Source: Amphiura filiformis (Eukaryota > Echinodermata > Ophiuroidea > Amphilepidida > Amphiuridae). Taken from it: a stretch of 64,000 nt of DNA. The DNA lies in contig NC_092647.1 in the NCBI RefSeq assembly GCF_039555335.1, positions 10,568,313-10,632,312 on the forward strand, read 5' to 3'. The notes below the pieces were generated by a model. The model was not told where the DNA came from. It saw nothing but the letters and a program-made list of their open reading frames with translations, and did no database searches. Positions 23,300 through 58,190 of this stretch are shown here, in pieces. Both the position numbers and the translations under genes were made by a program. Position 1 is the first letter of the stretch; every line of letters starts with the position of its first letter.

Positions 23300-23655
23300 C
23301 GTAGTCAATCTCCATAGGGATGGGCGATACCAGCTTTTGGTACCGATTGTCGATCTAGAGCAGTCAGGGGGTGGGGCCGAATTTTTAGAAAAAAATAAAA
23401 TAAAATGAAAAAAAAAATGGCCGCGGAGCTAAGCTTGCGCGACAGGGGGTTGTCTGAGGGGGATGTTCCCCTCAGAAGTAAAAACTTGTGCAAAATGAAG
23501 ATCTAATTGAGTGGTGGACAATTTTGGCACTATAGGCTATAGTGTAAAATTTTAGTTGAAAAAGCCACAAATTTGTAAAATTAATTCCCTATAAATTGTG
23601 TTAACATAGGAAATTTGCAAATGTCGAAAGAAGAGCGAAAATGGTCATATGTTTA
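23300..23655. repeat. Interspersed repeat abutting the GPCR break (family of 41.2-42.0 kb)
   Basis: It contains GCGCGACAGGGGGTTGTCTG, the hairpin GAGGGGGATGTTCCCCTC, and GGTGGACAATTTTGGCAC...TGTAAAATTTTAGTTGAAAA. The same order of motifs is repeated several times at 41190-41960. Its edge is close to the point at which GPCR copy 1 loses homology to copy 2. Confidence 0.6.
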
Positions 23656-24327
23656 TCCACTACGCTGTCTTATTATGAGGATAAAACACCAGCTAAAAAC
23701 CCAAAACAGGCTGAAGTAATGAACGGTGTCGTTTGGTTTTTGAAATGTAAACTGTGTAGGAAAATTAGCATAAGTAGCATCCTGTGGCCACAGGATACAC
23801 CAAGTAGTAAATTTCGTGTAAATTAAAGCTGTTAATGAGTTGAATCCTACAATCCACGCACAACAGATAAGTTTAACTGTTCGTCGAGTTCCTTTCATAA
23901 GATGATGTTTGATTGGGTAACAGATTGCCAGAAACCTTTCCATCGAGACCAGAGTGACAAATGCAAATGATACACTGATAAAGTAGGCAAATAAAGTATT
24001 ACTAACAAATGCCACAACAGCATTTGTTATTCGTACCGGACTGATTTGGTAATTTGCTATCAGTGGAATACCTATGGAGATTAATGTCATCATGTCCGAA
24101 ACCGATAAATTGAGCAGATATATATACGTCGGCGTGCGAAGAGACGGTGTTCGAATAACAGTGTATATAAATAACACATTGGAGATGAGTCCATAAAGTA
24201 TAATGGAAGGCCAGATGATTTCATATACAATCCATTCCCATGGTTGAAAGATGAAGTATGTCACGATATTGTTCGCATACGATAGATCTATTATCACCGA
24301 CTCGTTTTGATTGCAGATTGATTCCAT
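23653..24327 (-). pseudogene. Rhodopsin-type GPCR, copy 1, truncated after TM5
   Basis: The ATG at 24327 opens a receptor N-terminus with a likely N-glycosylation site (NES). Helices follow: TM1 with GLISNVLFIY, TM2 with LSVSD, TM3 ending SMERFLAICYPIKHH (ERF instead of DRY), TM4 with CCAWIVG, an extracellular loop 2 cysteine (TTWCILWPQD), and TM5. The usual cysteine at the top of TM3 is absent. After ILII the frame runs into unrelated sequence (RQRSG, stop), and TM6-TM7 are missing. The downstream paralogue shares the layout. An upstream in-frame methionine at 24384 would add 19 residues. Most like peptide-type receptors, but no ligand class can be named. As it stands it cannot form a seven-helix receptor unless a distant exon supplies the rest. 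Confidence 0.75.
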
Positions 24328-24384
24328 ATTAAAATCTATGAGCAAGAAAAATTGAATTATATTTAGAGCACCGTCGTTACACAC

Positions 24385-26038
24385 ACATTGCTATAGAAGT
24401 TCTACGAAAATACGGTTATCGTTTCGCTTTTATATAAAATCAGTAGCCTTTTTTTCGACTTATTATGTACGTGACAATTTCAGCACCAAATTTAAAACAC
24501 TGTCAATCTATTTAATAAAAATAAAAATGAAAATTGGAATGCTGGTATCGTGTTATTAGTTGAGGTGTATAAATATCCGGACTTAGTGTTCAGTAATCAG
24601 GCTGAATAATGAATATTAAAGAAAGTGGCAAGTCCGTCCTCCTACCAATCCCACCATCAAGATTAATAACACGTTCACAACACGTATGATAAGCTTGTGT
24701 AAACACGACAATAAGACAATAAAAAATGCATTCTCAATAAAAGCTCAAAGAAGAAATTTAAAAGGGAAAAGGAATATTGATTACAGGTAAAAAATGTTTC
24801 ACCCAGGCAGCAAATAGCGGTCACTGGATTTCAGCAGTTCTTGGAGTTCAGCGTGTCTCGGAGTATATCTGTAGGCCTGTTTAAAATGCCACCATGTGGT
24901 AGGGCTGCATGTAGGAATAGTTCGTGAGATGAATTAACCCCAGTACTATGAACCAACCCCTTATGGTTTCAGCCAGCATTTTGATTGGGTGAATAGATGG
25001 TAATGTCTGGTCTACTCGACGTGTTCACTATTTCTGACGGGAATATGATCGGGCGAGTGCCTTCGTCCCGCACCGCTTTCCAATAATCACAGTTCTGGAG
25101 TCTGTCTTGAGTCTTGTCACCCAACCAGGCTACATTACTATATCGTGGTAAGGGGGTGATAGAGTTACGCAATCTAATGTTCAGATATCGGTAGGCCTAT
25201 ATTTTAAGAAAATAGATGGGTATAGCTATATATATTTGCCATTTTTAGAGAAAAACTCTGTCACTAAAAATGGACCAAACTGCAAATGTCAAAAAGTCTA
25301 AAATTAGACCTAAGTTAATTAGGTATGCAGATCCATGTTTCTACTGTGAACAAATATACCAAAATACTAGGTGATCTTAAAATTAAGCTGAGCAAAATGT
25401 AGCTGATGAGATTAATAAAAGATCAACTAAGTCTTGATCACCATTAATCGAAACGCGTCCTACGATAGCTTTCTATAAGTCTCTCAAGGTAATTCCTACT
25501 CTCAACATTGTCAATAATATTTTTCAAGGCCGATATCTCAATTTCCAATTTTATAATACTATAACTTACGAACTCAATATCTTCGCTTAGGAATGTCCGA
25601 TTTCAGTGGGGAAAACGGTGTTGTGGAGTAAAATATCCCTATATTTAAGATATGTAAAAACCTCAAAATTGATAACCTGCCCAAAAGTGTCTCCTTTTGA
25701 CATGACACGTCACATATACATCGGCCAGCCAGAACATTGTACCACTACACTATAATCATCAAGAAGAAAACTCCTGGTTAAGTAGTGATAATTTAAAAGT
25801 GTGATTATATTGTATGTGCATTTATTGTTCATGAACCAATCATGTTTTTCTTTCAATTAAAGACTTAGATTTTGTTAACTAAATCAACCAGTGTATAATT
25901 TTGCTGTTGTGCATTCGTGTGAATTTGGGTAAAATGTGATTTTGGCGTTGAATCAGTACGACTTGTAACAACGTTATACCTCTGTAACTCATCGTATCTA
26001 TAGGATTATTATTACCAGATTTAAGTTTTAATAGCGAG
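24385..26038. other. Upstream flank of GPCR copy 1; no further gene
   Basis: 24385-24640 is homologous to 28300-28590 upstream of GPCR copy 2 (for example TAGAAGTTCTACGAAAATA and GGCTGAATAATGAATATTAA), so the duplication included promoter-side DNA. The rest, 24640-26038, is AT-rich with no recognisable frame. Confidence 0.5.
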
Positions 26039-27212: not shown

Positions 27213-28297
27213 TTATAACTTCGAAGATATTTCATTGCTAGATTCGTGCGAATTATGTGCATGAGACATGTTTTTACTCTCACAAAATAATCGTCCCATT
27301 GCAGCCTTAAAGCTTTGTCGGTATTGTTTATTTGTAATGAAGTAAAGTGTTGGATTTATACACGCATTGCAACCAGCTGCTAAATAATTCACCATAACTG
27401 GTACGATTGCAAGTAATGGGTTATTTGAATAAATATCGACACCAAACACAGGGAGAGCAAAGTAAATAAAATAGATAATATTCACTGCTCCGCAAAAGTA
27501 AAATACGCTACTATTAACGATTAACATAAAAGTAACTTGACGAAGTTGATCATCTAAGTCAACTGATGTGTTCAGAAATTGGCGACTTTGTTTTCGGTTC
27601 TTAAGAACAATGTACATTTTGCATACATAGAAGCTGTTATTATGAGAATTAAACACCAACTAAAAACCCAAAACATGCTGAAATAATGAACGGTGTCGTC
27701 TATAAGTTGAAATGTAAATTGTGTAGGTAGGTTAGCATAAGCACCATTCTGTGGCCACAGGATACACCAAGTAGTAAACCTTGTGTAAATTAAAGCTGTT
27801 AATGAGTTGAATCCTACAATCCATGCACAACAGATGAGTTTAACTGTTCGTCGAGTTCCTTTCATAAGATGATGTTTGATTGGGTAACAAATTGCAAGAA
27901 ACTTTTCCACCGAGACCAGCGTGACAAATGCAATTGATGCACTGATAAAGTAGGAACATAAAGTAATACTAACAAATGTCACAACAGCATTTGCTATTCG
28001 TACCGGACTGATTTGGTAATTTGCTATCTGTGGAATACCTATAAAGATTAATGTCATGATGTCCGAAATCGATAAATTGAGCAGATATATATACGTCGGC
28101 GTGCGAAGAGACGGTGTGCGAATGACAGTATAAATAAATAACACATTGGAGATGAGTCCATAAAGTATAATAGAAGGCCAGATGATTTCATATACAATCC
28201 ATTCCCATGGTTGAAAGATGAAGTATGTCACGATCGTATTGTTTGTTTACGATAGATCTATTATCACCGACTCGTTTTGATTGCAGATTGATTCCAT
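27213..28297 (-). pseudogene. Rhodopsin-type GPCR, copy 2, nonsense and frameshift
   Basis: Paralogue of 23653-24327, retaining all seven helices in two frames. From the ATG at 28297 the N-terminus matches copy 1, but codon 17 is TAA where copy 1 has TAT. TM1-TM5 follow (SVEKFLAICYPIKHH after TM3). Near 27625, after ITASMY, one base has been lost; the other frame continues with KMYIVLKNRKQSRQF, TM6, and TM7 with CINPTLYF (an NPxxY motif) and a C-terminal tail with serines. A start at a methionine just before TM1 (28231) could bypass the nonsense codon, but not the frameshift. Either a recent pseudogene or, for the frameshift, a sequencing error. Confidence 0.75.
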
Positions 28298-43121: not shown

Positions 43122-44498
43122 CTATTGCTATGCCTTCAAGTTCTATTCAAATTTCACAGGCAAATTATGCAGAAATACTGCGACGATGCTTCCTATGTGC
43201 CCAGTTTATATCAGCTCCATAATGACAAGAAAACCACTCATTTCCAGGGGCGTAGCAAGCAGGTGGACAGGGTCTACGAAGTATAGGGGCCCCGAGCAAA
43301 ACTCAAACATGAAAGGATTAGGGAAATGGCTGATAAAGGACCCCGCAATGCCCCTTGTTCATGGGCCTCGAGGCTCTTGCTATGCCCCTACTCATTCTAA
43401 TAACACTGATGAACTACTTTCTGGTATTTTTATAGGCAGTTCATGCAATATTTAAAACAGTGGTATAATGTAGAAAAATGTACATTAATGGATAGAACAT
43501 AAATTCAGCATGAAAATGCTTTTTGAATTTTTCAAAAAGGCCAACCGGTTTTCGAGCTATGGCTTGTTTTGTCGGGATAACTTGGCAAAACATTTGAACG
43601 TTTTAGGAACCTATTTCTTATTATAGTCTTTATTTTGGCATGGCGCCATCATAATTTCATTAAGAAATTGTTTTTCTATAATATTTTTATAATTATCTTC
43701 TTTAAACTATCCCACATTTGTTTTCATAAGAACATATAAGTTGTACCAAATTTTTGATCAATTATTTTGAGGAAATAGTCGCTAATTTGCATAATTAGCA
43801 ATTAATTAACAATTTTAATTAATTTTTGCAGTGGGAATTGTGATTTTTGTTCAATTAATAAATGAAATGCTGCTTTAAAGTGACTGACACACAAAGCAAT
43901 CATCAAAGTATCAAAAAACATTTAGAAAATGTGATTAAATTCATTAAAAAGGTCTAAAAATTGCATTAATTAGTGTTCAGTGAGCATGAAAACTAGCAAC
44001 ACTGTACGTTGGTTTTCCTCATATGAAGCCCAAATTTCCTTGAAGTAAAGGGTTTTCTTTGATTATTGGAGCCTTGCTGCAGGGGAATTTCTCTGAAACT
44101 GTGGATTTAGGACAACTTAATAGGCATGTATATTGATACTAACATGCATAAATATTGCTTGTAACCAGCATTATAAAAATTCAGTCCTAAATTTTCAAGA
44201 AACTAACTTTCCAACCACTGCGCCGATTTTGACGCAGGTTGATACAGTTATTCATCTTGACATACTCTACTTAGAAAATCAATTGCTTTCAGCACAAAAC
44301 CAGACTATAGTACCAATAACAGAGCATTTATAGAACTATGCACTCACTATATGGCAACACTGGTTTCCATGTTTACTGTGCCATGCTCACTGTGCAATCA
44401 GTGGATGACCTTGTCAACCAATTCAGTGAGCACACTGAACTACCTAATTTTAACGTGTATTAAATGAGAGCTTTATTAAGTGGTATGTTACTTTGTTG
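43122..44498. other. No gene recognised
   Basis: AT-rich unique-looking sequence up to the TACA next to the big transposon array; a short repeat fragment starts CAGGGGCGTAGCAAGCAG at about 43246. Confidence 0.4.
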
Positions 44499-44502
44499 TA
44501 CA
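44499..44502. repeat. TACA, probable target-site duplication (left)
   Basis: TACA immediately before the first TIR. The same TACA immediately follows the last TIR (54764-54767). The inner junctions of the array lack it. Confidence 0.55.
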
Positions 44503-44972
44503 GGGCGCACACCACTAAATAAAGTCCCATTGAAATACACGTAGATATACATGAAAGTAACTTTGTTTTTCTACCCCATGTAAAACCAATTTTCATATTT
44601 TAATCGCATCAATGTCTTAAATAAAGATGAAATTTTAATTAAAAATAGGTTTTTTGACACAAGTTGAGACTAACTTTTGAGATACGAACCCCTGAACAGC
44701 GCCATTCCGAATTTCAGCCGACACTAGCGCCTCCTTACCGGTTCCGGCCATGATATTGTTCCGAGAGCCTATCGCCCATGCACATTCGTTTCGGAACATT
44801 TTCTGAACGGATTTGTAATGTTGAGCTCCTATTCTATCGTTTTGGTCAAAACATTCAAGAGTCACTCAAATTCGGTTCCCTCGGGACGCCGATATATTTC
44901 GCATAGGTGCTATTTTTTACCGGGACTATGAAGGGTTACACCAAATGCGGAAGGATTTAGTGGTGTGCTGCC
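44503..44972. repeat. Terminal direct repeat S1
   Basis: 470 bp, bounded by inverted GGGCGCACACCACTAAAT / ATTTAGTGGTGTGCTGCC. The middle (44635-44865) is GC-rich. On the minus strand it contains CATGGCCGGAACCGGTAAGG, a start codon in good context followed by a splice-donor-like GGTAAGG. Essentially identical to S3 and more distant from S2. Confidence 0.8.
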
Positions 44973-45790
44973 TTATAAGACAAAAATTTTGTTTTTTAAT
45001 TTTTTCTGGAAAGAATAGACATTTTAAAGAAAAAGTGTCAAACCATTCCTCTCTGTGATTTGTTGATCTCAAATGAGACCATGTTTTTGTAAAATGATGG
45101 TATCCCAAATTGCACTGTAAGTATGTAGTGTTTGAATGCAATCAGAGTACTTATAGACTCTTTAGTTGACATAACTATTCCACGTAAGTTTTGGTTTGAT
45201 CATGCATATATGAATTGGAAAAGCGACTATATCTAGTAAAACATGTCAAACAACATTTCCACATTATTTTAACATTCTTCAAGTCATAATAAATGAATTA
45301 AATTAGCTTTAACATGTTTAACGTTAAGGCACGCAAAAGCTACATGAGTCAGAGTGTGATTTCATTTCGTAAATCTATTTAATTTAGGAGTCGACTACTT
45401 AAGAGTATAATGTGTTCAAAGTTGAAAAGTAACAAAAACACTTTCATGAATTGTGTAGAATAATGAGATATACGGATATGTTACACTGTGGACATACGTA
45501 CATGTTTAAACCCGACTTTTAGACCTACGTGCATCCTACAGGATTGATGAACATAATGCGTTCCTCTAAAAAGATTCCTTCAAGTTCTTCTTCATCATCT
45601 TCTTCTTTTATATTATGTATATTATGATAACATGTTTTAGCATTAAATTAAAGTGTGTAAGATTTATTGATCTGAACTAACCCGTTAACCTATTGACCCT
45701 TCAGGGAAGCGGGGAAGTTCCAAGTTTATGAGAGTAGTAGTCACGTGACCTGATCTCCAAGAAAAAGAATGACCATTATTACGAAGTTAT
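44973..45790. other. 5' non-coding part of internal segment A
   Basis: AT-rich leader between S1 and the transposase promoter; no protein-like frame. The equivalent in copy B is 49871-50690, nearly identical apart from homopolymer lengths. Confidence 0.5.
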
Positions 45791-45794
45791 TGCG

Positions 45795-45802
45795 TATATA
45801 AG
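45795..45802 (+). promoter_or_regulatory. TATA box of transposase copy A
   Basis: TATATAAG lies 82-89 bp upstream of the transposase ATG, with a CACGTG E-box 53 bp further upstream (45742-45747). The spacing fits a short 5' UTR. The same arrangement is in copy B at 50695-50702. Confidence 0.55.
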
Positions 45803-45883
45803 CGCATGTAAATGACGAATTTTGATATTTGGAATCTATCTTTCATATAAATAATATAAATACTTGAAGAAAAAATTAACAAC

Positions 45884-48567
45884 ATGCCAGAGAATAAGGT
45901 GATGAAGAGGAAGCGGCATTGGACACGGACATCAAGAAAACGCAAACATTGGATGCGCGGTGGCAATTTCTTTAAACCAGGGAATCAGTGGAGTCCATGT
46001 CGAAGAGATGGTGTTAAAGAAGACACAGCGCCAAAAGGTGATGTTCAAGAAGATGTTCCATCTACATCGAATGACATTCAAGGTAGGTAATGCTTTTCTT
46101 TGCAAAGTGTGGACAAGCTGAAAACGGGTCCTTTAATGTTTATCCTACTTTCGTGTCAATTCGCTAAATGTTTAACTTTCTTGGGCATAAAATATTTCGT
46201 GATTCGACAGAGTTAACATAGAAAAGATATGAACGGCACATGTAAATTCAATTCATGGCTAACGCCACATAGTATAGAAGTATTTGCTAATGTGTTGCTT
46301 TCTTTTGTTTTAATATTTTCAATACAGATAGTGTGCCAGAGGTACGCCGAAGAATCTCTATTGATCTCCACCGAATTGCGCGCAATCCGCAGACGCCAGA
46401 GATCCAACCGTCAAGTTTAAGACCATATAAATGTTCTCCTGTCAAAGAGCCCGAATCACCTAAAAGACTGACTGGGAATATTATTACAGATGTGACAAAA
46501 TGTGAGATTAATTTTAATAAGTGTATTCGAAGTCACTTAGAGGCGTTTCCAGATTGCCCTGGTGATGTTATCTTCGATCCACAGTCGTTTAGCACCTGGG
46601 GCTTGGGAATGGCTGGACGACTCAAGTGTTCTGATAGCTGTGGTTTCATATCGGATAAAATGAAATTTTATCAAGAAGTTGTGCGTCCTGGTAGAGGAAG
46701 AAGAGCTGCAAAGATAAACTCGCAGTTACAAGTTGTACTAACAAAACAAACTATTGGAAATTCTGCCGTTCGCGAAGTGTTGGCTTCGATTGACACCCCG
46801 TGTCCCAGCGAGTCTGGCATGCAAAAAACTGCGAACAAAGTGTGTGATGCATATCAAGAAATTGCAGAGAAACAGCTGAGCAAGAACAGAGAACTTGTGA
46901 AAACTGTTAGGACATTGAGAGGACTCGATGAGGCGAACAGGGATGTTCCTCTCGTCGTGGCTCAATCGGACGTAGCCTACAATAATCCCATCAAAGGGAG
47001 AATGTTTTACCAACCAGGAACTCAAGCCTGGGCTCCATGTTTTGCAGGTGAGCCCGGGCTTAGACATTTACCAATCGCGTTCCAAACACGCAGTAAAGTT
47101 TGCAGTTGTGTAGCTAAAAATGGTGTCTTGACACATAGGAAAGACTGTAAAAAGAACTTTCCTTCCGAACAAGCAATGGGCAATGCTGAATATGAACTCG
47201 GTAAAGACTTGGGTAGAGAATTGATGGAAGGAGAATCGCCACTTGGAATTAGCACACTGGTGACCGACGGCGATTCGCACCTGCATAAAGGCATGAAGGA
47301 AGTCATGGCTAGCTTCGAAATCAGAACGGAGAAAGGAGACTGCACCAGACATATCACGAGATCAATAAGTCGCAACATCCGAAAGGGCACTTTAAGTGAC
47401 AGATGCTTGGGGGAGGGAAACACAAGCCAAGAAAAGGGCCGAAATAAGCAAATACTGGCCAATTTTATCGAGAGACGATGTTCAATGGAGTTTAGGGCAG
47501 CCTACAGAAGATACGGTAGCAACTTGGAGAAACTAGTGAACACTTGCAAACTTGCCAAAATAGGAATTTTAGGGTGTGTGCAGGGCCATCCCGACATATG
47601 TCGACAATCTTCTCTCGTGTGTGGAGCCCACAGATGGAAGAGCAAGAGCAAGGTAAACATTTCGAGTCTATTCTAATCATGTTTTCTTTCAAATAAATGA
47701 AGTAAATGAACAAAAGGACACCCTGCGTAAAACTGTAAGATCCCTGACGCCGCTGATGCTATAAAGCTATATGCACATTTAAACTTCATCGTGCTTGTAT
47801 ATAAGGAGGTGTAACGTTTATGGTTAGGGTCTAGGGTTGGGTATAAGATCTAGGGTTAGTGTATTGGTTTTAAGCTTCCGTTCTGGCTAGGGTTAGGGTT
47901 AGAATTTAGATCAGGGTTATGATTAGATTAGGGTTAGGATTTTGTTAAGTTTATGATTAGGTTAGGGTTAGGGCTCGGTTATGTTAAAGATGAAGAGGGT
48001 ATTCTGTAATTATTCCGAATTTCGAGTAATGGTTCCCTTTTTTATTTGTTTTTCATTTTTACTCAGCCACCACCAGGCCTACCAGACCGCAACTATGTTA
48101 AACTCAGCAAATCAGATGCATGCCTAATAGAAAAATGGATTGACAACAAGTTGGGTCCAACTGCTGTGAGAGGACAGAAGGATAACATCACAACAAATAG
48201 AAGCGAAGCATCACACCTGACTGTGCTCAGAGGGTCACCTAAGTGTCGCAATCGTCGCAGAAATTTCAGCGGACGCGCAAAATCTGCGGTCCACTCCATG
48301 AGTGTTGGTGTCATTGATAGTGTTGTGACGGCCAACACTATCCTCGGCGCAGAAAACGCGACCAACTGTCCCGCTAATCACGCCCGCAGACAATTAAGAA
48401 ACAGAAATATCTATCATAAAGACAGAAGAACATCTCGGGCATATAAGGCTTCAAAATTTGCCTCTGTAAGACGAGCAAGACATAGTCGACAGTCTGCCTC
48501 CAGAGGATACCGTACCGGTGTCCAAGATCCCATAGTTCGGCTTGATCACTCTTACACACCTACCTAG
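45884..48567 (+). CDS. DDE transposase, copy A (three exons, open)
   Basis: Exons 45884-46082, 46328-47652 and 48067-48567. Junctions CAAG/GTAGGT..TACAG/AT and CAAG/GTAAAC..CTCAG/CC join in phase to 674 codons plus stop. The N-terminus is strongly basic (KRKRHWTRTSRKRKHW). A CxxC-type cluster is near residue 167 (LKCSDSC). The putative triad is D281 (SDVAYNNP), D380/D382 (TLVTDGDSHL) and E555 (TNRSEASHLTVLRG). Zinc-type cysteines and histidines lie in CSCV...HRKDC and CVQGHPDIC...CGAH. The layout resembles the metazoan Mutator-like transposase family (Pfam Mutator/MULE type; Kolobok-like proteins are similar), but the 4-bp flank fits neither Mutator nor Kolobok. Near 47410-47440 two compensating indels relative to copy B leave a short out-of-frame patch (about residues 428-438). 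Confidence 0.8.
47822..47980 (+). repeat. Telomere-like TTAGGG repeats in transposase intron 2 (copy A)
   Basis: About a dozen GGTTAGGGTTAG-type units, interrupted by TTAGATTAGGG and TTTATGATTAGG variants, sit in the 414-bp second intron. The motif is the metazoan telomere repeat in degenerate form. Confidence 0.75.
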
Positions 48568-48698
48568 GGATAAAAGTTGAAGAGAACAGAAAGAAGTGTT
48601 AATGTCATGACATGATTCATTTAATTTTTTTAATGACACATCACAGTAGGCCTATGTATGTTCGACAAACAAATCACTTTCTCTTTTTTGTGATTGGT

Positions 48699-48742
48699 AG
48701 TTCTGAAAAGAACTGTTTGGTTTAGTAGTCCTAAAAAGGACT
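48699..48742 (-). promoter_or_regulatory. Two histone-like stem-loops after the endonuclease stop (copy A)
   Basis: On the minus strand AGTCCTTTTTAGGACT (48727-48742) and AGTTCTTTTCAGAACT (48699-48714) lie 27 and 55 nt after the endonuclease stop. Both keep the six-pair stem, four-base loop and the G-C second pair of the histone consensus, but have A-T at the base. The second is followed by ACCAATCACAAAAAAGAG, a purine-rich stretch where a U7-binding element would be. Confidence 0.4.
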
Positions 48743-48768
48743 GTTTTTGTAAAATGACTGAGGAAAGA

Positions 48769-49169
48769 TCACTGCTTTCTGATGATGCAGGGAGGTGAAC
48801 ATCCGCCGCACGTCCTGCCAAAGTGGCAATCAATCCTCCTGGTGTTGTCAACAGGCATTTCCAGATGCAGGTGGCTTATCTCAACGCATTCCTTCTTGCC
48901 ACACCTGTGGGAGACTTCCCGGCTGCTCGATTTCGTATGAGGTGCGGTTCTCGGTTTTCCAAAATGTACACGGCCCTGTGAAGCGTAGTGTTCACTTCTC
49001 TGTGCCCAGGATACCGCAGATGATACCTAAAGTATCCAGCCTTCGTCTGGGATCCTTCACGTACCAGCAAACACCCCTGGTCCCTGTCACATCTCGTGTA
49101 AATTTGCTCCAACTTGTCTTTAATTTTACCTTCCTCCGTCTTTCCGTCACTTAGCATGGGCGCTGCCAT
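48769..49169 (-). pseudogene. His-Cys box endonuclease, copy A (frameshifted)
   Basis: Same gene as 53664-54065. One C is missing in the C-run near 48918, so the frame shifts just before the catalytic SH.C motif, and the product would end in an unrelated tail. All other residues agree with copy B. The shift is at a homopolymer, so a sequencing or assembly error is possible. Confidence 0.7.
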
Positions 49170-49397
49170 TTTGTATGTATACAGTGCAGTGATTCGCCAA
49201 AAGTTTGGCGGTAAAGCCTACTATAATTATGTTTAAATGCAATAAAAAAATATGTTATATTAATTCATTGTGAAGACAGTAATTCTTAGAGTGTAAATCA
49301 ATTTTTATATACTTTTAAAAGTACGAAAATAAAGAGTAAAGGGGCATTTTCAAAGCAAAAAACACTGAAAACTGGCCATTTTGCGCATGTCTTCGAA

Positions 49398-49870
49398 GGG
49401 CGCACACCACTAAATAAAGTCCCATTGAAATACACGTAGATATACATGAAAGTAACTTTGTTTTTTTTCTACCCCATGTAAAACCAATTTTCATATTTTA
49501 ATCGCATCAATGTCTTAAATAAAGATGAAATTTTAATTAAAAATAGGTTTTTTGACACAAGTTGAGACTAACTTTTGAGATACGAACCCCTGAACAGCGC
49601 CATTCCGAATTTCAGCCGACACTAGCGCCTCCTTACCGGTTCCGGCCATGATATTGTTCCGAGAGCCTATCGCCCATGCACATTCGTTTCGGAACATTTT
49701 CTGAACGGATTTGTAATGTTGAGCTCCTATTCTATCGTTTTGGTCAAAACATTCAAGAGTCACTCAAATTCGGTTCCCGCGGGACGCCGATCTATTTACC
49801 ATAGGTGCTATTTTTTACCGGGACTATGAAGGGTTACACCAAATGCGGAAGGATTTAGTGGTGTGCTGCC
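49398..49870. repeat. Central direct repeat S2
   Basis: 473 bp. Same boundaries as S1 and S3, but with private differences (CCGCGGGACGCCGATCTATT where S1 and S3 have CTCGGGACGCCGATATATT; a longer T-run near 49460). It is not flanked by TACA. Confidence 0.8.
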
Positions 49871-50694
49871 TTATAAGACAAAAATTTTTGTTTTTTAATT
49901 TTTTTCTGGAAAGAATAGACATTTTAAAGAAAAAAGTGTCAAACCATTCCTCTCTGTGATTTGTTGATCTCAAATGAGACCATGTTTTTGTAAAATGATG
50001 GTATCCCAAATTGCACTGTAAGTATGTAGTGTTTGAATGCAATCAGAGTACTTATAGACTCTTTAGTTGACATAACTATTCCACGTAAGTTTTGGTTTGA
50101 TCATGCATATATGAATTGGAAAAGCGACTATATCTAGTAAAACATGTCAAACAACATTTCCACATTATTTTAACATTCTTCAAGTCATAATAAATGAATT
50201 AAATTAGCTTTAACATGTTTAACGTTAAGGCACGCAAAAGCTACATGAGTCAGAGTGTGATTTCATTTCGTAAATCTATTTAATTTAGGAGTCGACTACT
50301 TAAGAGTATAATGTGTTCAAAGTTGAAAAGTAACAAAAACACTTTCATGAATTGTGTAGAATAATGAGATATACGGATATGTTACACTGTGGACATACGT
50401 ACATGTTTAAACCCGACTTTTAGACCTACGTGCATCCTACAGGATTGATGAACATAATGCGTTCCTCTAAAAAAGATTCCTTCAAGTTCTTCTTCATCAT
50501 CTTCTTCTTTTATCTTATGTATCTTATGATCACATGTTTTAGCATTAAATTAAAGTGTGTAAGATTTATTGATCTGAACTAACCCGTTAACCTATTGACC
50601 CTTCAGGAAGCGGGGAAGTTCAAGTTTATGAGAGTAGTAGTCACGTGACCTGATCTCCAAGAAAAAGAATGACCATTATTACGAAGTTATTGCG

Positions 50695-50702
50695 TATATA
50701 AG
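50695..50702 (+). promoter_or_regulatory. TATA box of transposase copy B
   Basis: TATATAAG 82-89 bp upstream of the ATG at 50784; a CACGTG E-box is at 50642-50647. Confidence 0.5.
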
Positions 50703-50783
50703 CGCATGTAAATGACGAATTTTGATATTTGGAATCTATCTTTCATATAAATAATATAAATACTTGAAGAAAAAATTAACAAC

Positions 50784-53461
50784 ATGCCAGAGAATAAGGT
50801 GATGAAGAGGAAGCGGCATTGGACACGGACATCAAGAAAACGCAAACATTGGATGCGCGGTGGCAATTTCTTTAAACCAGGGAATCAGTGGAGTCCATGT
50901 CGAAGAGATGGTGTTAAAGAAGACACAGCGCCAAAAGGTGATGTTCAAGAAGATGTTCCATCTACATCGAATGACATTCAAGGTAGGTAATGCTTTTCTT
51001 TGCAAAGTGTGGACAAGCTGAAAACGGGTCCTTTAATGTTTATCCTACTTTCGTGTCAATTCGCTAAATGTTTAACTTTCTTGGGCATAAAATATTTCGT
51101 GATTCGACAGAGTTAACATAGAAAAGATATGAACGGCACATGTAAATTCAATTCATGGCTAACGCCACATAGTATAGAAGTATTTGCTAATGTGTTGCTT
51201 TCTTTTGTTTTAATATTTTCAATACAGATAGTGTGCCAGAGGTACGCCGAAGAATCTCTATTGATCTCCACCGAATTGCGCGCAATCCGCAGACGCCAGA
51301 GATCCAACCGTCAAGTTTAAGACCATATAAATGTTCTCCTGTCAAAGAGCCCGAATCACCTAAAAGACTGACTGGGAATATTATTACAGATGTGACAAAA
51401 TGTGAGATTAATTTTAATAAGTGTATTCGAAGTCACTTAGAGGCGTTTCCAGATTGCCCTGGTGATGTTATCTTCGATCCACAGTCGTTTAGCACCTGGG
51501 GCTTGGGAATGGCTGGACGACTCAAGTGTTCTGATAGCTGTGGTTTCATATCGGATAAAATGAAATTTTATCAAGAAGTTGTGCGTCCTGGTAGAGGAAG
51601 AAGAGCTGCAAAGATAAACTCGCAGTTACAAGTTGTACTAACAAAACAAACTATTGGAAATTCTGCCGTTCGCGAAGTGTTGGCTTCGATTGACACCCCG
51701 TGTCCCAGCGAGTCTGGCATGCAAAAAACTGCGAACAAAGTGTGTGATGCATATCAAGAAATTGCAGAGAAACAGCTGAGCAAGAACAGAGAACTTGTGA
51801 AAACTGTTAGGACATTGAGAGGACTCGATGAGGCGAACAGGGATGTTCCTCTCGTCGTGGCTCAATCGGACGTAGCCTACAATAATCCCATCAAAGGGAG
51901 AATGTTTTACCAACCAGGAACTCAAGCCTGGGCTCCATGTTTTGCAGGTGAGCCCGGGCTTAGACATTTACCAATCGCGTTCCAAACACGCAGTAAAGTT
52001 TGCAGTTGTGTAGCTAAAAATGGTGTCTTGACACATAGGAAAGACTGTAAAAAGAACTTTCCTTCCGAACAAGCAATGGGCAATGCTGAATATGAACTCG
52101 GTAAAGACTTGGGTAGAGAATTGATGGAAGGAGAATCGCCACTTGGAATTAGCACACTGGTGACCGACGGCGATTCGCACCTGCATAAAGGCATGAAGGA
52201 AGTCATGGCTAGCTTCGAAATCAGAACGGAGAAAGGAGACTGCACCAGACATATCACGAGATCAATAAGTCGCAACATCCGAAAGGGCACTTTAAGTGAC
52301 AGATGCTTGGGGAGGAAACACAAGCCAAGAAAAGGGCCGAAATAAGCAAATACTGGCCAATTTTATCGAGAGACGATGTTCAATGGAGTTTAGGGCAGCC
52401 TACAGAAGATACGGTAGCAACTTGGAGAAACTAGTGAACACTTGCAAACTTGCCAAAATAGGAATTTTAGGGTGTGTGCAGGGCCATCCCGACATATGTC
52501 GACAATCTTCTCTCGTGTGTGGAGCCCACAGATGGAAGAGCAAGAGCAAGGTAAACATTTCGAGTCTATTCTAATCATGTTTTCTTTCAAATAAATGAAG
52601 TAAATGAACAAAAGGACACCCTGCGTAAAACTGTAAGATCCCTGACGCCGCTGATGCTATAAAGCTATATGCACATTTAAACTTCATCGTGCTTGTATAT
52701 AAGGAGGTGTAACGTTTATGGTTAGGGTCTAGGGTTGGGTATAAGATCTAGGGTTAGTGTATTGGTTTTAAGCTTCCGTTCTGGCTAGGGTTAGGGTTAG
52801 AATTTAGATCAGGGTTATGATTAGATTAGGGTTAGGATTTTGTTAAGTTTATGATTAGGTTAGGGTTAGGGCTCGGTTATGTTAAAGATGAAGAGGGTAT
52901 TCTGTAATTATTCCGAATTTCGAGTAATGGTTCCCTTTTTATTTGTTTTCATTTTACTCAGCCACCACCAGGCCTACCAGACCGCAACTATGTTAAACTC
53001 AGCAAATCAGATGCATGCCTAATAGAAAATGGATTGACAACAAGTTGGGTCCAACTGCTGTGAGAGGACAGAAGGATAACATCACAACAAATAGAAGCGA
53101 AGCATCACACCTGACTGTGCTCAGAGGGTCACCTAAGTGTCGCAATCGTCGCAGAAATTTCAGCGGACGCGCAAAATCTGCGGTCCACTCCATGAGTGTT
53201 GGTGTCATTGATAGTGTTGTGACGGCCAACACTATCCTCGGCGCAGAAAACGCGACCAACTGTCCCGCTAATCACGCCCGCAGACAATTAAGAAACAGAA
53301 ATATCTATCATAAAGACAGAAGAACATCTCGGGCATATAAGGCTTCAAAATTTGCCTCTGTAAGACGAGCAAGACATAGTCGACAGTCTGCCTCCAGAGG
53401 ATACCGTACCGGTGTCCAAGATCCCATAGTTCGGCTTGATCACTCTTACACACCTACCTAG
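50784..53461 (+). pseudogene. DDE transposase, copy B (two frameshifts)
   Basis: Exons correspond to 50784-50982, 51228-52550 and 52962-53461. Exon 1 and most of exon 2 are identical in protein to copy A. At 52308-52316 the G-runs are two bases shorter, so the frame ends at PRKGPK, stop. In exon 3 near 53026 one A is missing from the run in ATAGAAAATGG. The two catalytic aspartates are encoded before the first break and the glutamate after the second. Both breaks are homopolymer length changes. Confidence 0.75.
52719..52876 (+). repeat. Telomere-like TTAGGG repeats in transposase intron 2 (copy B)
   Basis: Identical arrangement to 47822-47980, so it predates the dimer formation. Confidence 0.75.
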
Positions 53462-53593
53462 GGATAAAAGTTGAAGAGAACAGAAAGAAGTGTTAATGTC
53501 ATGACATGATTCATTTAATTTTTTTTAATGACACATCACAGTAGGCCTATGTATGTTCGACAAACAAATCACTTTCTCTTTTTTGTGATTGGT

Positions 53594-53637
53594 AGTTCTG
53601 AAAAGAACTGTTTGGTTTAGTAGTCCTAAAAAGGACT
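53594..53637 (-). promoter_or_regulatory. Two histone-like stem-loops after the endonuclease stop (copy B)
   Basis: Same two hairpins as in copy A (53622-53637 and 53594-53609), 27 and 55 nt past the stop of the intact endonuclease frame. Confidence 0.4.
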
Positions 53638-53663
53638 GTTTTTGTAAAATGACTGAGGAAAGA

Positions 53664-54065
53664 TCACTGCTTTCTGATGATGCAGGGAGGTGAACATCCG
53701 CCGCACGTCCTGCCAAAGTGGCAATCAATCCTCCTGGTGTTGTCAACAGGCATTTCCAGATGCAGGTGGCTTATCTCAACGCATTCCTTCTTGCCACACC
53801 TGTGGGAGACTTCCCCGGCTGCTCGATTTCGTATGAGGTGCGGTTCTCGATTTTCCAAAATGTACACGGCCCTGTGAAGCGTAGTGTTCACTTCTCTGTG
53901 CCCAGGATACCGCAGATGATACCTAAAGTATCCAGCCTTCGTCTGGGATCCTTCACGTACCAGCAAACACCCCTGGTCCCTGTCACATCTCGTGTAAATT
54001 TGCTCCAACTTGTCTTTAATTTTACCTTCCTCCGTCTTTCCGTCACTTAGCATGGGCGCTGCCAT
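53664..54065 (-). CDS. His-Cys box (His-Me finger) homing endonuclease-like protein, copy B
   Basis: 133 aa from ATG at 54065. The N-terminal half has QGCLLVREGS and GYFRYHLRYPGHREVNTTLH; the C-terminal half has EVSHRCGKKECVEISHLHLE, then MPVDNTRRIDC and CGGCSPPC. Catalytic His88 and metal-binding Asn109 are 21 residues apart, as are H98 and N119 in I-PpoI. C90, C95 and H100 have the same spacing as C100, C105 and H110 there, with C33 as the fourth ligand. C115, C121, C124 and C128 form the second zinc site, with cysteine where I-PpoI has H134. Function: DNA cleavage, inferred. The gene converges with the transposase (about 200 bp between stops). Homing endonucleases of this box occur mainly in rDNA group I introns; inside an animal DNA transposon it is unusual. 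Confidence 0.8.
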   Translation of the reverse strand: MAAPMLSDGKTEEGKIKDKLEQIYTRCDRDQGCLLVREGSQTKAGYFRYHLRYPGHREVNTTLHRAVYILENREPHLIRNRAAGEVSHRCGKKECVEISHLHLEMPVDNTRRIDCHFGRTCGGCSPPCIIRKQ

Positions 54066-54293
54066 TTTGTATGTATACAGTGCAGTGATTCGCCAAAAGT
54101 TTGGCGGTAAAGCCTACTATAATTATGTTTAAATGCAATAAAAAAATATGTTATATTAATTCATTGTGAAGACAGTAATTCTTAGAGTGTAAATCAATTT
54201 TTATATACTTTTAAAAGTACGAAAATAAAGAGTAAAGGGGCATTTTCAAAGCAAAAAACACTGAAAACTGGCCATTTTGCGCATGTCTTCGAA

Positions 54294-54763
54294 GGGCGCA
54301 CACCACTAAATAAAGTCCCATTGAAATACACGTAGATATACATGAAAGTAACTTTGTTTTTCTACCCCATGTAAAACCAATTTTCATATTTTAATCGCAT
54401 CAATGTCTTAAATAAAGATGAAATTTTAATTAAAAATAGGTTTTTTGACACAAGTTGAGACTAACTTTTGAGATACGAACCCCTGAACAGCGCCATTCCG
54501 AATTTCAGCCGACACTAGCGCCTCCTTACCGGTTCCGGCCATGATATTGTTCCGAGAGCCTATCGCCCATGCACATTCGTTTCGGAACATTTTCTGAACG
54601 GATTTGTAATGTTGAGCTCCTATTCTATCGTTTTGGTCAAAACATTCAAGAGTCACTCAAATTCGGTTCCCTCGGGACGCCGATATATTTCGCATAGGTG
54701 CTATTTTTTACCGGGACTATGAAGGGTTACACCAAATGCGGAAGGATTTAGTGGTGTGCTGCC
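54294..54763. repeat. Terminal direct repeat S3
   Basis: 470 bp, matching S1 at the sites where S2 differs. Its right TIR is the outer end of the array and is followed by TACA (54764-54767). Confidence 0.8.
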
Positions 54764-54767
54764 TACA
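54764..54767. repeat. TACA, probable target-site duplication (right)
   Basis: Matches 44499-44502. Four bases only, so a chance match cannot be excluded. Confidence 0.5.
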
Positions 54768-55175
54768 ACCTATCCAACGAATTATATGATTGATGGTGTG
54801 TGTAAAAATGTACTTGAATTTAGCTCGCTTTAGCCCCGGGCTTTAGCATTAAAAACTGCATATGAAGGGAATAATTGCAGTGACACAGAAATGGCGTATT
54901 AGTGGCTAACAAAATTATGCCAACTGCTCGACGATTCTCTACAATTGTCAGTAATGGTGGATGCTGATCACTCTGTTTGCTTTTCACTTTTGTACTGACA
55001 TATAGCCTGGAATTTTCACAAGAGTGTTGAAAACTTTACGCCGTCAGTACATTTGCAAATTTGTGCTCTCTGGTCTCACAAAGTTAGCTACGCCTCTTTT
55101 GTTAGATTACAATAATAATTGCACTTAATTACAATAATAGTATTAATAATACTGTTTGTACTTAGGTAGAAGACG

Positions 55176-57342
55176 ATGGCAAAGTCTACTAAATTTTTCC
55201 AGTTCACTGTTGGGACAAGTACAGACGTAACCAACCGCCACGAACAGCTTCGAGTAACGGTTTATAGTCCTAAACCAACTGGAACGACAGCACTCTACAC
55301 CGCACAGGAAGCGAAGAAATACAGGCCAACAGATAAGAAAATAATCTCTAATTTGATACATCAGTTAAAAACGCAGGATATTGAAAAGTCAACAAAACAA
55401 ACATTAGTTAAACCCACACCAGGTGAGCAAGCTCGAGGTGGCACCACCATAAAAGACCTTCGCATCGATAGCCAGCCAGCAACTAAGGCGTACAGGAATA
55501 TCCATATTCAAAGCGGTCCAAAGAGCTTTGCTGTGACGACAATAGACAATGGAGGACAACTCTGTTTTGCAGTGGGCTACGAGAAAAGACTGTTGGGATA
55601 TTTGAAGCTGGGCCTGTACGAGAGCTTTAACGATATTGTCTTCCAAGATCCAAAAAAGACTAAGCCAATAGGAGCCGAGCAATACAACATTAAGGTCACA
55701 ACTGAAGAACGCGAACTAAAAGCGAACAGGTGGGTTAAACGAGACTATTCAGACAACGACCTGAAGAAAGTTGCAGGTGTCATTGAAGCTAGGCTGAGGG
55801 AGAACAAAGCGAAGAAAAGTGGGCGAATGAAAAGTACTAAAGCCATGAACAACCGCAAAATTACCGAAGCCAATGATTCGATTGAGCACATTGTGGCCGC
55901 AATAGAGAAGAATGTGGCCAAGCTTATCAAGAAAGAAGGTGAAGCTGCCAATATACCAAGTGTATCTACATTTCTGGGCATTTTCTTTGGAGCGTCTCTC
56001 TTGACAGGCGACTTTGTTGGGGCGTTTACAGCTGTTACCCTTGGTTTTCTATCAGCCGATATTTCTGGAACCGGTATGATTTGAAATGTTACTTTAAACT
56101 TTTAAATTCGTGTATACTTTATATATATACAGGGTGTCCCAAAGGTATTTTAAGTAAATACTGCACAAAAGGTTACGAAGCTGTTAGAAATACGCCTATA
56201 GCTTAACAAATAATTATTGTTTTCATAATAGTTCAACATAGAAAGAAGGATGATTTATTTACGTGCATAGTGTCCAAAAATCTCAAAGTCGGTCGTGGAG
56301 GAATATGTCTCCCCTTGTTTTGCCCTTAATATGAAAATAGATTGGAGATAGATTTGACATGTTTAACACAGCCTAAGCAAACCTCTTTCAACATGTTCAA
56401 AGGCACGTTTAACGATCAGTCTCATCTCGGGAGCCTCACCAAGAGCCAGCCGTATACATGTATTCCAGTTGGAATACATACACTCCCTGTGGAAGACATG
56501 ACCTTAATCTCCCACACAGGGAGTGCAAATTTCAAATGGGGGTTACCTGAATGGGTGAATCCATTTGAAACCTACATCCACTGAGCAGGAGATTAAAAGC
56601 ATGTCTTCCATAGGGGTGTGTGGGTTTAAACTAAAATAGCATATTGTTCATTTTACCTCATAGTTAGTATTGTTGTTTTTCCATATTCTATCCAGGTACT
56701 ACCACTGCGCTTAGAAAAGATGTTGATCAGATGGCGAGAGATATCCAGCAAGCCATAAATGATAAGAAAAAGCACAAGAAACTTCTGGAGAAAGAAATTG
56801 AAGAGCTGAAGCAACAGAACAGAAGGATCAACGCCGAGCTACAGAAGCTGCTTCCGGAATCCCCAATATATGGGGATGGTAACTATGATTGCGCTTTCAA
56901 TGAAACAGAAATGTGTAATGTAGATGACATATCCAAGATCCATATGAGGAGTGGGGATCTTGTAAATGCGATTCAGGTTGAATACCGATTTGGAGGGAAG
57001 GGAGGTTTCCATGGTGGTAAAGGTGGTAGTCCGAAAACGTTTGATCTCGACACGGATGAGAGAATCACTGGCGTAGAAGTCAGTACACTGTCTTTGGCAG
57101 TGAGCAGCATTTCCTTTGTCACTGACTGTGGTCGTAAGGAAACGTTCGGAACAGTCCAGCCAAATGTCCAAACATTTGAAATGATCGATGGCGAGTATTT
57201 AGGTGCCATCAGGGGCTATGATATGTTCAAAGTAAAAGATGGCAAAGTGTCTAAGAGTCTTCCTGGAAGGGCGGGAAACTGTGAAGTACTTCCGGCAATT
57301 GGGTTTGTTCCAAAAGTGATGTACGAGGAGACCACAAAATAA
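55176..57342 (+). CDS. Two-exon protein with hydrophobic segment, coiled coil and jacalin-like lectin domain
   Basis: Exons 55176-56073 and 56696-57342 (ACCG/GTATGA..TCCAG/GTACTA) join in phase to 514 codons. Residues 1-260 match no family I know: a positively charged start without signal peptide, a probable beta-rich part (about 90-185) and amphipathic helices (195-255). Residues 264-294 are hydrophobic and glycine-rich with one central charged residue (STFLGIFFGASLLTGDFVGA), like a membrane hairpin. Residues 305-355 form a coiled coil. From about 375 on a beta-prism pattern appears: SKIHMRSGDLVNAIQVEY, GGKGGFHGGKGG, FDLDTDERITGVEV, ISFVTDCGRKETFG and a terminal AIGF, as in jacalin-type lectins that bind carbohydrate. 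Predicted role: glycan recognition combined with membrane or oligomer formation (inference). An acceptor-like TACTTAG/GTAGAAGACG just before the ATG suggests a 5' UTR intron. Confidence 0.7.
56130..56629. mobile_element. Repeat-filled intron of the lectin gene
   Basis: An ACAGGGTGTCCCAAAGGTAT end of the mariner-like family starts at 56130. A MITE of about 155 bp spans 56472-56629, with ACACTCCCTGTGGAAGACAT, GACCTTAATCTCC at the left and GGAGATTAAAAGCATGTCTT, CCATAGGGGTGTGTG at the right. Confidence 0.6.
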
Positions 57343-57971: not shown

Positions 57972-58190
57972 CGACCTTTTCTTTTCTTTTCTTTTCTTTT
58001 CTTTTCTTTTCTTTTCTTTTCTTTTCTTTTCTTTTCTTTTCTTTTCTTTTCTTTTCTTTTCTTTTCTTTTCTTTTCTTTTCTTTTCTTTTCTTTTCTTTT
58101 CTTCTCATTTCATTTCATATCATTTCATTTCATTTCATTTCATTTCATTTCATTTCATTTCATTTCATTTCATTTCATTTCATTTCATAC
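57972..58190. repeat. (CTTTT)n followed by (CATTT)n microsatellites
   Basis: About 26 CTTTT units (57972-58104) pass directly into about 16 CATTT units (58106-58190). One C/T-to-A substitution separates the two unit types. Confidence 0.9.

Follow-up and report, generated by a model that had tools for sequence, protein, structure and literature searches.

The segment 44503–54763 of the window, the 64-kb stretch of DNA analysed here as a whole, is almost certainly a dimer of a KolobokP transposon; its repeat structure and both proteins are read directly from the DNA, and from these we infer the roles of the transposase and the nuclease. According to the description by Kojima & Bao (Mob DNA 13:24, 2022; PMC9587614), KolobokP is a lineage of the Kolobok superfamily comprising 228 families from seven animal phyla, in which a DDE transposase is paired with a His-Me finger nuclease encoded downstream on the opposite strand. 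The same paper gives the architecture as two long terminal direct repeats (LTDRs) enclosing an internal region (INT), in the order LTDR-INT-LTDR, with terminal inverted repeats (TIRs) of up to 18 bp, RR/YY ends and target duplications of 3–5 bp, and reports that the elements also occur as solo LTDRs and as (LTDR-INT)n-LTDR multimers (PMC9587614).

The putative assignment to KolobokP was made by comparing architecture, target duplication, motifs and protein profiles with this published description. The kind of element was already described in 2022, and the array adds no new kind. The preliminary description of this locus had held that no described superfamily has this pair of genes and that their combination would be a new mode; both statements have to be withdrawn, as KolobokP already has the pair and nuclease-induced unequal crossover was proposed in the same paper, whose authors state that the model awaits experiment (PMC9587614). 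A search on the lineage name found no second paper on KolobokP in the literature collection used; a paper on bivalve mitochondria (PMC12750733) cites Kojima & Bao 2022.

Architecture of the array

The array has the order LTDR-INT-LTDR-INT-LTDR, with three direct repeats and two internal regions of 4.4 kb, and its outer limits are exactly those given by the preliminary description. All five parts are described on the forward strand: LTDR 1 (44503–44972, 470 bp), INT 1 (44973–49397, 4425 bp), LTDR 2 (49398–49870, 473 bp), which is common to both units, INT 2 (49871–54293, 4423 bp), and LTDR 3 (54294–54763, 470 bp). The LTDR lengths of 470, 473 and 470 bp agree with the shorter of the two LTDR classes of KolobokP, approximately 450 and 660 bp, and families with LTDRs of 473 bp are among those published (PMC9587614). 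The length of a monomer here would be 470 + 4425 + 470 = 5365 bp.

Each LTDR starts with GGGCGCACACCACTAAAT and ends with its near-inverse, yielding imperfect 18-bp TIRs that match at 16 of 18 positions and have GG...CC termini, consistent with the short TIRs and RR...YY ends of KolobokP. The inverted repetition continues into the internal region, where the INT ends (44973–44982 and 49388–49397) form the 10-bp inverted repeats TTATAAGACA and TTCGAAGACA with 8 of 10 positions matching, which lengthens the LTDR inverted repeat to 28 bp, with mismatches at positions 3–4 on both border sides. The earlier reading of a TIR-bounded unit with two genes, present twice, stands in that both genes are found in both units; it fails in its architecture, as this is not a plain TIR element and comprises three LTDRs, each with its own TIRs.

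The last letters of the left flank (44499–44502) and the first letters of the right flank (54764–54767) both read TACA, confirming the 4-bp target duplication that had been proposed; at this one locus, its length lies within the KolobokP range of 3–5 bp. Around the middle LTDR the adjoining letters are CGAA on one side and TTAT on the other, indicating that there is no target duplication between the units. As judged by eye, the rejoined empty site (44495–44502 plus 54768–54769) forms a 10-bp palindrome, GTTGTACAAC, that contains the TACA duplication. Multimers and solo LTDRs are both reported for KolobokP (PMC9587614). A dimer is present here; under blastn (E 1e-3), neither a further copy of the array nor a lone LTDR turned up elsewhere in the window.

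The transposase frame

In copy 1, three forward-strand exons (45884–46082, 46328–47652 and 48067–48567), whose GT/AG borders were picked by eye, join in frame to a protein of 674 aa, in full agreement with the three-exon transposase of 674 codons noted before. The joined protein matches PF20700 over residues 125–498 (E 4.6e-51, over the curated cut-off), and the open frame 46291–47676 alone matches the same profile with an E of 1.8e-51.

Using motif patterns composed after inspection of the sequence, we obtained the order AQSD, CCHC finger, TDGDS, CTRH (CxxH), second Cys/His finger and TTNRSE, corresponding in the 674 aa to D281, 325–340, D380 or D382, 405–408, 483–498 and E555, respectively. 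Exon 2 encodes the probable first two acidic residues along with the CCHC finger, the CxxH motif and the second finger; exon 3 contributes the probable third acidic residue (TTNRSE), which lies outside the PF20700 match. This arrangement agrees with that of KolobokP, a DDD/E transposase that has a C/DxxH motif, a CCHC finger following the first D and another finger ahead of the E. The copy 1 frame is a DDE transposase whose motifs follow the published Kolobok order, with putative catalytic residues at these positions.

The Pfam name of PF20700 is Mutator-like, and MuDR/Mutator elements make target duplications of about 8–11 bp. A MuDR/Mutator identity was considered and rejected, based on the duplication of 4 bp and on the motif order, which is that of Kolobok.

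Telomere-like TTAGGG words, loosely spaced and on one strand, were observed in the intron that separates exon 2 from exon 3 (47824–47973 and 52722–52871), with five words per copy in this intron and a further two per copy in exon 2; we deem them incidental.

The His-Cys box nuclease

Downstream of the transposase and on the complementary strand, both units carry a His-Cys box nuclease gene, in the layout that characterises the His-Me finger (His-Cys box) nuclease of KolobokP. In copy 2 the gene is open (53664–54065, reverse strand, 133 aa) and matches PF05551 (E 4.4e-10, over the curated cut-off), the Pfam family for the zinc-binding loop found in homing endonucleases. In copy 1 the gene (48769–49169, reverse strand) is frame-shifted as assembled, and its 113-aa frame gave no Pfam match.

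With the Ser-His pair of the copy 2 protein set as S97/H98 of I-PpoI, the residues H110, E114 and N119 are present, and cysteines fall at positions 100, 105, 125, 131, 134 and 138 in I-PpoI numbering. The preliminary description had credited this 133-aa protein with the full catalytic and zinc-ligand spacing of such enzymes, which is borne out for S97, H98, H110, E114, N119 and the six cysteines. Cys 100, 105, 125 and 138 match zinc-ligand positions of I-PpoI; the nuclease has a Cys where I-PpoI has His134 and is shifted by one residue at I-PpoI Cys132. Searching for solved structures that resemble the nuclease, phmmer returned no PDB match (149 aa at E up to 1, 133 aa at E up to 10), so that the link with I-PpoI is drawn from the Pfam profile and the residue spacing.

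Its position on the opposite strand and in a reading frame of its own might suggest that this one element acquired the nuclease by an unrelated insertion or carries it as a passenger. We consider the likelihood of this practically negligible, as the gene is found in both units and a like protein in like place and orientation is reported for most KolobokP families (PMC9587614). The nuclease is part of the element, and the original proposal of a DNA transposon that carries both genes is upheld by their presence in both units together with the published KolobokP layout. To the accompanying question, whether the nuclease is missing from other copies, the same source gives a large part of the answer: most families encode it, and two named ones, KolobokP-1_LG and KolobokP-1_SaGl, apparently do not, perhaps owing to decay (PMC9587614).

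State of the two copies and origin of the dimer

INT 1 and INT 2 differ by four substitutions and by 14 gaps of one base, every one of them in a single-base run, the shortest of two bases. Some of these gaps put the transposase of copy 2 and the nuclease of copy 1 out of frame, so that, as assembled, only the transposase is open in copy 1, only the nuclease in copy 2, and neither unit has both frames open. The two copies of the preliminary description exist as adjoining units of one insertion, but not, as assembled, as units with both genes open. Because indels in single-base runs far outnumber substitutions, we take most of them to be probable read errors, and the lack of a unit with both frames intact is perhaps a consequence of such errors. 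Only one substitution between the copies falls in coding sequence, a silent one in the nuclease, which renders dN/dS between the copies uninformative on selection.

LTDR 1 and LTDR 3 show 0 differences over 470 bp, and this identity, together with internal regions only four substitutions apart, suggests that the dimer is young. LTDR 2 differs from these two identical repeats by four substitutions within 21 bp and by one three-base gap.

Since single-base-run indels of one base make up 14 of the 18 INT differences, this region of the assembly probably contains some errors, and the dimer itself might be an assembly artefact in which two alleles of a monomer were joined head to tail. This we regard as very improbable, since the repeated stretch starts and stops at the element borders to within one base, and multimers of such form have been published (PMC9587614).

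Taking the array as a genuine KolobokP dimer, its formation can be pictured following Kojima & Bao. The transposase would bind the short TIRs that terminate the LTDRs and move either the whole element or a lone LTDR, and the nuclease would make breaks within the element. Such breaks may then be repaired from another LTDR, which either the sister chromatid or an LTDR-INT circle could provide, and this repair would add units in place, giving rise to a dimer inside a single target duplication. The earlier suggestion that the nuclease may aid copy gain by homing-like repair comes close to the published model (PMC9587614). A dimer within one duplication fits sister exchange, integration of a circle or transposition of a ready-made dimer alike.

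The substitution cluster of LTDR 2 is not what a simple, recent exchange among identical repeats would predict, barring an assembly error or a tract acquired from another element, and, if it is no assembly error, the evidence leans slightly towards a donor distinct from the repeats on either side. Such a donor could be an LTDR-INT circle, derived from a copy with slight differences, that integrated into the LTDR of a resident monomer, in place of sister exchange, a route that is among the proposals of Kojima & Bao (PMC9587614). The four-substitution cluster confined to LTDR 2 and absent from LTDRs 1 and 3, as well as three A-to-C differences within 18 bp in INT 2, speak for such an integration; however, the differences are few and mostly single-base-run indels resembling read error, and the clusters may be assembly artefacts, leaving circle integration a rather unlikely origin of the dimer.

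Palindromes at the LTDR-INT borders

At both kinds of LTDR-INT border there is an 8-bp palindrome with the pattern CTTNNAAG (CTTATAAG and CTTCGAAG), reaching one base into the LTDR. After seeing these palindromes we considered that the nuclease might cut at the borders and not inside the LTDR, with the palindrome as candidate site; I-PpoI itself recognises a site with a CTTAAG core. Across the window we counted 19 instances of the form CTTNNAAG, four of these at the borders, compared with a mean of 24.45 in shuffled sequence and at least 19 in 82 of 100 shuffles; it is not enriched, so that only its placement at the borders is notable. The stretch LTDR1-INT1-LTDR2 contains 27 palindromes of 8 bp in 5361 positions. 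The INT of KolobokP-1_MeMe is reported to start and end with TATA, which speaks against the generality of a border palindrome (PMC9587614). Overall, we find cleavage at the borders highly doubtful. If true, it would imply that only full units are cut and multiplied, as solo LTDRs are without border sites, and the LTDR-INT border offers a concrete place to seek the cleavage site of the nuclease.

Searches for relatives and neighbouring sequence

Protein scans of the viral_contigs collection retrieved 12, 27 and 2 stretches with the peptide patterns, and a scan of genome_contigs retrieved 212, with zero confirmed relatives among them; as the scans depend on exact matches to short peptides and neither collection consists of animal genomes, this outcome says little. 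An 18-base LTDR end was present in two viral contigs, where blastn of the LTDR and INT against the retrieved parts found nothing beyond these 18 bases, and we dismissed it as a chance match.

For the genomic context, 10 of the window's 20 frames of at least 150 aa were scanned against Pfam. Six exceeded the cut-off (two AIG1, two rhodopsin-type receptors, a reverse transcriptase and a jacalin-like lectin), two had hits that all stayed below it (reverse transcriptase; Imm39) and two gave none. This set of domains would fit an invertebrate animal. To the right of the element lie a 304-aa open frame (55170–56084, forward strand) with no Pfam match at E 0.1, the frame with the jacalin-like lectin domain (56668–57342, forward strand; PF01419, E 1.4e-11) and, at approximately 57974–58187, long pentanucleotide arrays of TTTTC and then TTTCA. 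The two rhodopsin-type receptor frames (23653–24390 and 27572–28246, reverse strand) are alike by eye, perhaps as a result of local duplication.

Comparison with known systems

The array shares with KolobokP both proteins, their strand layout, LTDRs of approximately 450 bp, TIRs, RR/YY ends (here GG...CC), a target duplication of 3–5 bp (here 4 bp) and a multimeric form, and differs in the length of its monomer, 5365 bp compared to the 4,022–4,748 bp given for autonomous oyster families (PMC9587614). KolobokE, KolobokD and KolobokH likewise combine a Kolobok transposase with an accessory DNA enzyme, which in these lineages is, by the same account, an exonuclease-like nuclease or a helicase (PMC9587614). 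With I-PpoI, from a group I intron of Physarum, the nuclease has S97, H98, H110, E114 and N119 in common (I-PpoI numbers as given in PMC9587614); the genomic setting differs in that the nuclease here is carried by a transposon. According to Kojima & Bao, LTDRs are present in no other DNA transposons (PMC9587614). KolobokP is an unusual element, and the locus supplies a dimer of it that looks young and has a clear target duplication.
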